Origin: Millisia brevis NBRC 105863
GTDB taxonomy: Bacteria; Actinomycetota; Actinomycetes; Mycobacteriales; Mycobacteriaceae
Length of the DNA: 64,000 nucleotides
Direction: 5' to 3'
Assembly (NCBI RefSeq): GCF_001552615.1
Contig: NZ_BCRN01000011.1
Location: forward strand, 124,001-188,000
This document shows, one piece after another, positions 37,979-38,859 of the stretch. Position numbers and translations under genes: made by a program. The notes under the pieces were generated by a model. The model saw only the letters and a list, made by a program, of their open reading frames with translations. It ran no database searches and had not been told where the DNA came from. Position 1 is the first letter of the stretch. Each line of letters starts with the position of its first letter.

Positions 37979-38859
37979 TCAGGTCCGTTCCGCCGGCCAA
38001 TCCCCGTCCGTCGCCGCCCGCAACACCGTGCGGTCGGCACTCCACCGCGCCGGAATCGGTCCGGACCCGACCGCCACGACGGCGGTCAGATCCTCCGCCT
38101 CGCTCGGGTCGTCGCCGAGCAGACCGATCGGTACGAAGGCGTGGGTCACCCACTCCTCCACCAGCACGTCGATCAGGGCGGTCCCGTCGGCGACCGGTTC
38201 GTCCGCGCGCACGACCGCCGCGCCCGATACCGCCGCGGTGAACATCTCGAACGCCGCCGCGACCGGACCCGCCGCGCCGAAGGTGCGGGACTGCTCGTCG
38301 ACGGCCAACCGCTCGCGCAGGTCATCGACCACCCCCATCGCCTCCGCCCGGCTGAACGTCCGGCCGGTCGCGGTGATCAGGAACGGCTCCTCGGGTTCGA
38401 GTCGGCTGCCGCGGTCGGCGTAGCTGATCGGCGCTGCCGACCTTCCGGCCGTCTCGGCGACCAACTCCGGGTCGTCGAGCAGCAGCCGCGCATCGGCCCA
38501 CCGGGAGGCGCCGGCGTCGGCCGCGATCGCCGCCTGCCGGGCCGAGTCGATGATCAGCAGGTCGACCGGGTGGTCCGGACCGCTGATCGTCGCGGCGGAG
38601 CCCTCCAACGGCACGATGGCGGCCCCGATCTTCGCCAGCGCCCACAGCAGTTCGACCGTTCGCGGGGTCCGGTCGATCGCCACCGCGATGCGCGATCCGG
38701 GTTCGACCCCCCGATCGATCAGCGCACGCGCCAGGCGCGACGAGCCGGCGTCGATGTCGGCGTAGGTCAGATCGCTCTCACCGAGGACGACCGCCGGCGC
38801 GTCCGGATCGGTCTCGACCATCTCCGCCAATGCGGCGGCGATCGTCGTGCGGGTGGTCT
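37979..38859 (-). other. Vestigial adenylation domain at the C-terminus of NRPS 1
   Basis: The last 293 residues still align with the N-terminal subdomain of the neighbouring A domains ([48 protein letters not shown]). The catalytic motifs are gone. TSGSTGxPKG reads [13 protein letters not shown], the FDxS aspartate site reads AAFEMF, and the protein ends where the A5 motif would stand. No stop or frameshift breaks it. It cannot adenylate; a scaffold or docking role toward A8 of NRPS 2 is plausible. Confidence 0.8.

Follow-up and report, generated by a model that had tools for sequence, protein, structure and literature searches.

Here we analyze a degenerate adenylation (A) domain, which we call A0, from a 64,000-nucleotide stretch of the Millisia brevis NBRC 105863 genome (contig NZ_BCRN01000011.1, positions 124,001 to 188,000; hereafter the window). 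A0 forms the C-terminus of a nonribosomal peptide synthetase (NRPS1), and the gene for another synthetase (NRPS2) follows. We propose that A0 is a pseudo-enzyme that probably acts as a docking receptor for an arginine-rich tail at the N-terminus of NRPS2 and thereby rejoins the condensation (C) domain C8 with A8 and the carrier domain T8 across a split within module 8. At the sequence level, the analysis shows the split itself, the loss of A-domain motifs, a clade of A0 domains, constraint on A0 in relatives, a shift towards acidic residues, the arginine-rich tail, and the co-occurrence of tail and A0.

A degenerate adenylation domain at a split module

We assigned the domains of NRPS1 and NRPS2 with hidden Markov models (HMMs) built from the window's own domains. 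(Coordinates are positions in the window, and all of the features described are on the reverse strand.) The open frame of NRPS1 (37979-61858) has 7959 codons when counted from a GTG. From the ATG at 61837, seven codons on, it encodes 7,952 amino acids, and this long frame capped by a decayed A domain is present just as a sequence-only reading of the window had stated. NRPS1 consists of A1, six C-A pairs, C8, and A0, which makes seven full A domains, seven C domains, and the terminal partial A domain; its N-terminus also gives a very weak match to the A-domain model (5.2 bits). NRPS2 (25092-37757) consists of A8 and three C-A pairs, with four full A domains.

C8 (38891-40294) matches positions 2-459 of the 461-position C-domain model at 463 bits. 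From its active-site motif, HHVVIDG at 39779-39799 (an instance of HHxxxDG, read from the sequence), C8 looks catalytically intact. A8 (36300-37670) matches positions 6-483 of the 483-position A-domain model at 638 bits. NRPS1 ends in C8-A0 and NRPS2 opens with a full A8, so by its domain layout module 8 is shown to be divided intramodularly between C8 on NRPS1 and A8 (with a carrier domain) on NRPS2. The stop codon of A0 and the ATG of NRPS2 (at 37757, with GGAAGGA upstream) are separated by 221 nt (37758-37978), in which a consensus scan found no terminator-like or promoter-like site.

A0 itself spans 37979-38890 (about 303 amino acids). The sequence-only reading had located it correctly and had drawn it slightly too short, at 37979-38859. 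A0 matches positions 9-289 of the 483-position A-domain model at 92 bits, versus 609-698 bits for the eleven full A domains of NRPS1 and NRPS2. It is identical to these full domains at 61-100 of about 290 aligned residues, with the highest identity to the domain numbered A5 (100/289). In an alignment with the full domains A1 to A11, the loop of motif A3 (TSGSTGxPKG) and the FDxS of motif A4 are deleted from A0, and the protein ends just before motif A5. Segments resembling motifs A1 and A2 survive. Hence the claim that every catalytic motif is missing holds from motif A3 onwards but not for the first two.

Whole-domain similarity does not place A0 among the NRPS adenylation domains. Pfam's AMP-binding family (PF00501) matches the window's A0 at 60.9 bits (cut-off 29.9), yet the match covers only positions 3-77 of 384. 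Against TIGR01733, the first of 12 A0 domains scored 63.7 bits, below the cut-off of 317.4. We found no family model that was specific to A0; the matches were only to AMP-binding, acyl-CoA ligase, or NRPS models.

We rejected the possibility that a sequencing error or frameshift conceals a full A domain. This is unlikely because only 221 nt separate the A0 stop from the ATG of NRPS2 and because A0 in other species likewise terminates in this part of the domain.

A0 recurs at similar junctions in related bacteria

A search with an A0 profile gave 80 loci, and a terminal partial A domain was present in 33 of them. The sources of these 33 include species of Aldersonia, Antrihabitans, Nocardia, Rhodococcus, Prescottella, and Hoyosella. 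With further stretches from the family, the pool grew to 137 rows with 119 junction rows. Removing three repeats of one gene (L149, L150, and L160) and one truncated normal A domain (the second row of L200) left 133 distinct A0 and 116 junctions. This set was gathered by similarity to A0 and includes near-identical species, and its size is not a frequency.

Nearly all of the distinct A0 (129/133) are preceded by a C domain, and HHxxxDG is present in 110 of the 125 complete C domains in this position. In 116 of 133 cases, A0 is followed by an NRPS frame on the same strand that opens with an A domain. The first A domain of this partner reaches at least model position 415 in 104 of the 119 junction rows, and in 10 the stretch ends within it; the other five rows (L057 and its repeat L160, L200, L209, and L239) are otherwise. 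The patterns for motifs A3 and A5 were found in none of the 133 A0 and in the partner A domains of 107 and 104 of the 119 rows, respectively.

No single frame with the arrangement C-A0-A was found among the loci examined; four listed rows (L057, L095, L209, and L349) are other A-A arrangements. In L057 and L209, the arginine-tailed partner has a partial A domain ahead of a further A domain, and in L095, the arginine-rich tail is followed by two nearly full A domains in tandem. Other partial AMP-binding matches that we examined in the window's genome (L061-L065) did not have the A0 junction.

The core type of A0 spans nine genus codes (g1, g2, g6, g10, g16, g20, g23, g27, and g28), including that of the window. 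Matches to the A0 profile at E ≤ 1e-50 occur in 235 of 401 genomes of the family, a figure that includes normal A domains and is not a count of A0. Of 396 genomes sampled from the phylum, 5 matched at E ≤ 1e-55, all from the same family, and only some of the matches are A0. In a sample of 200 genomes from the order, no match to the A0 profile exceeded 182 bits outside the family, although a very diverged A0 would escape this search.

The partner carries an arginine-rich tail and A0 is acidic

We then examined the other side of the junction, taking the 30 residues ahead of the partner's A domain as its tail. In NRPS2, this tail (37671-37757), our proposed ligand for A0, is the most arginine-rich 30-residue window of the protein (9/30). 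Across the 116 tails the median arginine fraction is 0.30, versus 0.067 in 25 internal C-A linkers from the same loci. Arginine and lysine together make up at least 0.20 of the residues in 114 of the 116 tails, and arginine is by far the more common (1016 versus 27 lysines). A frequent tail sequence is MTRPxRxRPTRTRRPRV. The two tails that are not enriched in arginine belong to the partners of a separate, longer type of A0 (L060 and L067). Thus, 114 of 116 junctions have A0 and an arginine-rich tail as matched elements at the facing ends of the two subunits, as in a docking pair.

A0 has in turn become acidic. Its median net charge is -23 (133 rows), versus -12 for partner A domains (102 rows) and -11 for internal A domains (22 rows), all computed over the same stretch of the domain. 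A0 is more acidic than its own partner A domain in 99 of 102 pairs; in the window, the charges are -25 and -8. The gain of acidic residues falls at particular conserved columns (69 and 56 representative rows). One column is aspartate or glutamate in 97% of A0 versus 22% of other A domains. Another is acidic in 85% versus 20%, and other A domains have arginine or lysine there in 58% of cases.

As controls, we considered synthetases that open with an A domain and are not directly preceded by an A0 in the stretch read (the window's own NRPS1, L270, L356, L361, and L366). Their arginine fractions are 0-0.07. (This listing had nine A-first rows, which included NRPS2 itself, at 0.30, and L372, at 0.10, which is not truly A-first.) By eye, L355, L357, and L358 resemble L356.

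These results bear on a claim of the sequence-only reading, namely that the vestigial domain receives A8 of the second protein. The acidity of A0 and the arginine-rich tail of its partner make this likely, and the binding itself is what we infer from them.

A0 is constrained in relatives and is predicted to keep its fold

To measure constraint, we computed the ratio of nonsynonymous to synonymous substitution rates (dN/dS) by the Nei-Gojobori approach with a purpose-written script, using each locus once in close pairs. For 37 independent close pairs of A0 from relatives, dN/dS ranged from 0.06 to 0.48, with a median of 0.25. The medians for the neighboring domains were 0.15 for the preceding C domain (33 pairs) and 0.11 for the partner A domain (30 pairs). 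A0 in relatives is therefore constrained, though less than its neighbors are. These pairs do not include the window's own copy, whose nearest A0 relatives are about 39% identical to it. Only open-frame A0 were collected, and frameshifted copies would escape. Seven matches with scores in or near the range of A0 were flagged with one internal stop; six of them were examined and are A0 rows with a terminal stop, and the seventh (G339:C50) was left out.

The predicted structure of A0 points the same way. AlphaFold modelled A0 alone, from 20 sequences, with a mean predicted local distance difference test score (pLDDT) of 90.1 and a predicted template modelling score (pTM) of 0.89. The best solved match to this model is residues 25-335 of PheA (PDB:1amu), with Z = 29.4 and a root-mean-square deviation (rmsd) of 2.9 over 288 residues. 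By this model, A0 retains the A-domain core fold in its larger, N-terminal part. Compared with the core of PheA, it has the same predicted fold and lacks motifs A3, A4, and A5, the final part of the core, and the A-sub domain.

The similar end point in many species, the low dN/dS, and the confidently predicted fold agree with the earlier proposal that A0 has been selected for a task. The dN/dS across relatives had been set beforehand as the test, and it is not near 1. Could A0 nevertheless be left over from a gene fission or recombination, decaying and so far without a function? The loss of motifs A3 to A5 and of the C-terminal part of the domain would fit, as would the faster evolution of A0 than of its neighbors. 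But the dN/dS values contradict this for the relatives, and a neutral relic or pseudogene is rejected there. Also, in the loci read, one clade spans nine genera of the family; A0 end at a similar point, and the fold is confidently predicted. We consider the relic explanation highly improbable.

Most A0 in the trees form a single clade

We built a tree from 45 A domains (14 A0, 11 N-terminal partner domains, and 20 internal domains). Twelve A0, including the window's, form one clade with support of 99/98 (ultrafast bootstrap/SH-aLRT). The other two, L060 (from G024) and L067 (from G020), are longer A0 that end near motif A7, and they form their own pair at 100/99. All 14 A0 are joined at only 79/93. 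A second, quicker tree with 100 rows groups 49 core A0 on the same side of a branch with SH-aLRT of 92, with the two long A0 apart. An ESR motif is present in 96 of 133 A0 and in none of the 116 partners. The loss of the A3 loop and the ESR motif, which A0 have in common, argue for one origin. We also considered that A0 arose by independent decay in each cluster; the trees oppose this for the 12 and 49 rows used.

In the L060/L067 pair, A0 runs to the region of motif A7, its middle is lost, and the partner has no arginine-rich tail. This pair may represent a second origin of A0.

How A0 may dock NRPS2, and alternative explanations

Our proposal is that an adenylation domain lost its catalysis and became a dedicated docking domain, A0. 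The acidic surface of A0 would bind the presumably disordered arginine-rich tail of NRPS2, by a contact that is mainly electrostatic. This would bring A8-T8 back to C8 and restore the geometry of C8-A8-T8, so that C8 could condense the growing peptide with the residue carried by T8.

Several observations weigh against this proposal. First, A0 has no adjoining A-first frame in the stretch read in 17 of 133 cases, some of them for lack of sequence, and the plain HHxxxDG motif is missing from 15 of the 125 complete C domains that precede A0. Second, A0 have long branches, so attraction may have aided the clade. Third, a joint model of C8 and A0 (31 sequences; pLDDT 83.7, pTM 0.58), in which each domain looks fine, does not show the canonical C-A arrangement: compared with SrfA-C (PDB:2vsq), Z is 38.6 and the rmsd is 18.6 over 721 residues, and alignments to C-A structures that cover about 700 residues or more have an rmsd of about 17-21. 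Either the predicted orientation of C8 and A0 differs from that of canonical C-A pairs or the model does not fix it. The idea that A0 holds C8 in a C-A-like platform, which had been offered from the sequence, is thus unsupported. Fourth, A0 evolves faster than the C domain and the partner A domain, which would also fit a relaxed structural cap. Fifth, some arginine-rich tails have no A0 next to them. These include L263 in the window's genome (0.23) and L371 in G329, a genome that has A0 (0.28). Furthermore, 30 of 34 A-first frames without an adjoining A0, mostly from Nocardia, carry arginine-rich tails (0.17-0.40; for example, METARRSARGSRRRRSGS). These 34 frames were drawn by similarity to A0 and are a biased sample. 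Upstream of seven such arginine-tailed frames, we found other genes or an NRPS without A0 at its C-terminus. These orphan tails imply either docking between loci or another role for the tail.

The fourth observation raises the possibility that A0 is only a structural cap, which steadies the C-terminal lobe of C8 while docking relies on other surfaces or on chance encounter. A cap would account for the position of A0 after a C domain in 129/133 cases and for its retained fold, and its dN/dS, above that of the C domain and the partner A domain, is as in a loosely constrained scaffold. However, a cap leaves three things unexplained: the gain of acidic residues at particular columns, the arginine-rich tail of the next protein, and the lack of any C-A0-A single frame among the loci examined. 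We regard a cap alone as unlikely.

The orphan tails on 30 A-first frames would also fit another explanation, in which A0 recruits a third protein (an MbtH-like protein, an editing thioesterase, or a tailoring enzyme) and the tail binds something else, say an acidic lipid or RNA. MbtH-like proteins are indeed among the partners that A domains bind. But 114 of the 116 junctions combine the tail with A0, and the remaining two, which lack the tail, have another type of A0. This makes recruitment of a third protein rather improbable.

Orphan A0, orphan tails, and other split junctions

If the orphan tails reflect docking between loci, then A0 and the arginine-rich tail would be a family-wide docking code, and one NRPS that ends in A0 would feed several arginine-tailed NRPSs and give several peptides. 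Some of these partners would lie at distant chromosomal sites, and each would have a release domain of its own. We hold this extension of the docking proposal only tentatively, as one that is doubtful at present. Elsewhere in three genomes (G376, G388, and G329), a very large NRPS frame terminates in an A0 that has no A-first NRPS adjoining it in the stretch read. In G026, the A0 of L058 has no adjoining A-first NRPS, and the arginine-tailed L291 is about 19 kb away on the other strand. The orphan A0 of G197 is a profile match only. We also ran a profile of the tail plus the A domain against 20 genomes. Among the matches listed, the tail was aligned from position 11 or earlier in all 13 of the genomes with A0, and no such alignment was found among the matches listed for the 7 genomes chosen as lacking A0. 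As for L263 (G000:C7:216000-226000), this A-C-A protein with a mildly arginine-rich start and no A0 beside it might pair with the window's A0 as a second partner, or the resemblance could be chance.

Some related arrangements were seen as well. At L335-L354 (from G376, G388, G329, G316, and G197), there are NRPSs with both an arginine-rich tail at the N-terminus and A0 at the C-terminus. They are followed by one or two arginine-tailed NRPSs with thioesterase-like ends (judged by eye, not by profile). Possibly, these are branching assembly lines. A shorter class of A0, of about 255-259 amino acids (L092, L103, L110, L133, L138, L141, L147, and L253), has no A-first NRPS adjoining in the stretch read, and similar A0 end the very large NRPS frames of G376, G388, and G329. 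Single stop-to-stop NRPS frames of about 14,600-18,100 codons are present in G329, G388, G376, G105, and G088, which are nearly complete genomes.

The window also borders a C|A junction of a second kind. The upstream NRPS, which lies outside the window (L264, G000:C11:195000-201272), ends in a C domain and a "mini-A" of about 85-100 amino acids. NRPS1 opens with a related mini-A ahead of A1 (61499-61789; the weak match of 5.2 bits mentioned above), which faces the mini-A of the upstream NRPS. We recognized it by aligning it to the C-terminal end of that NRPS and to four further junctions, from two g9 genomes (L355-L358), where the mini-A pair also occurs. There, the two sides can be aligned to one another, in the manner of a pseudo-symmetric pair. 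At L270 (from G021), the upstream NRPS also ends in a short A-domain start.

Comparison with known docking systems

Sections of PMC9113145 describe docking classes that are found only in NRPSs, namely COM (helix-hand) and the three-helix bundle of PAX, along with β-hairpin domains that are found in hybrids as well. These sections place COM, PAX, and β-hairpin docking at junctions between an epimerization (E) and a C domain, or between a peptidyl carrier protein (PCP) and a C or cyclization (Cy) domain. Here, the junction is C|A, and the partner opens with a tail and an A domain rather than with C or Cy. As there described, the β-hairpin docking domain and its short linear motif (SLiM) are similar to our proposal, with a short disordered motif, a folded receptor, and salt bridges that add specificity. 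In contrast to COM, PAX, and β-hairpin elements, which are short or small, A0 lies at a split inside a module, between C and A. Relative to the same account, the proposed receptor is also unusual in being a degenerate C-terminal catalytic domain, and the proposed motif is N-terminal and arginine-rich.

Intramodular split junctions are described, in the same parts of that article, for trans-AT polyketide synthases (PKSs), with docking by DHD and four-helix-bundle domains (PMC9113145). As with A0, this docking rejoins an internally split module. A0 occurs instead in NRPSs, and in the PKS systems as covered there, the receptor is not a dead domain.

A partial A domain has also been described for module 13 of the glidonin synthetase: according to passages of PMC10587159, this A* is compared with kutzneride, and domains other than C are said to stabilize the protein. 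Like A0, A* is a non-functional remnant of an A domain that is kept in an NRPS. However, A* as presented in those passages lacks the N-terminal core and keeps the C-terminal part, inside a C-A*-T module, whereas A0 keeps the opposite part and ends the protein.

Neither A0 nor the arginine-rich tail is described in the portions covered of PMC9113145, PMC10587159, PMC12283262, PMC13324335, PMC4035055, PMC7413640, PMC10127204, and PMC9361827. The literature searched on degenerate A domains, docking, and split modules, mostly open-access papers, likewise gave no description of them. A0 and the arginine-rich tail are likely a variant of the NRPS docking systems that forms a new class, if the tail binds A0 as we propose.

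If our proposal is true, then A0 would define a class of docking at the C|A boundary inside a module, which the NRPS classes in the covered sections of PMC9113145 do not include, and a catalytic domain would have turned into a receptor. The intramodular split site would be portable and could be used in NRPS engineering. The pairing of A0 with arginine-rich tails would also predict the order of the NRPSs in the clusters of Nocardia, Rhodococcus, and their relatives.
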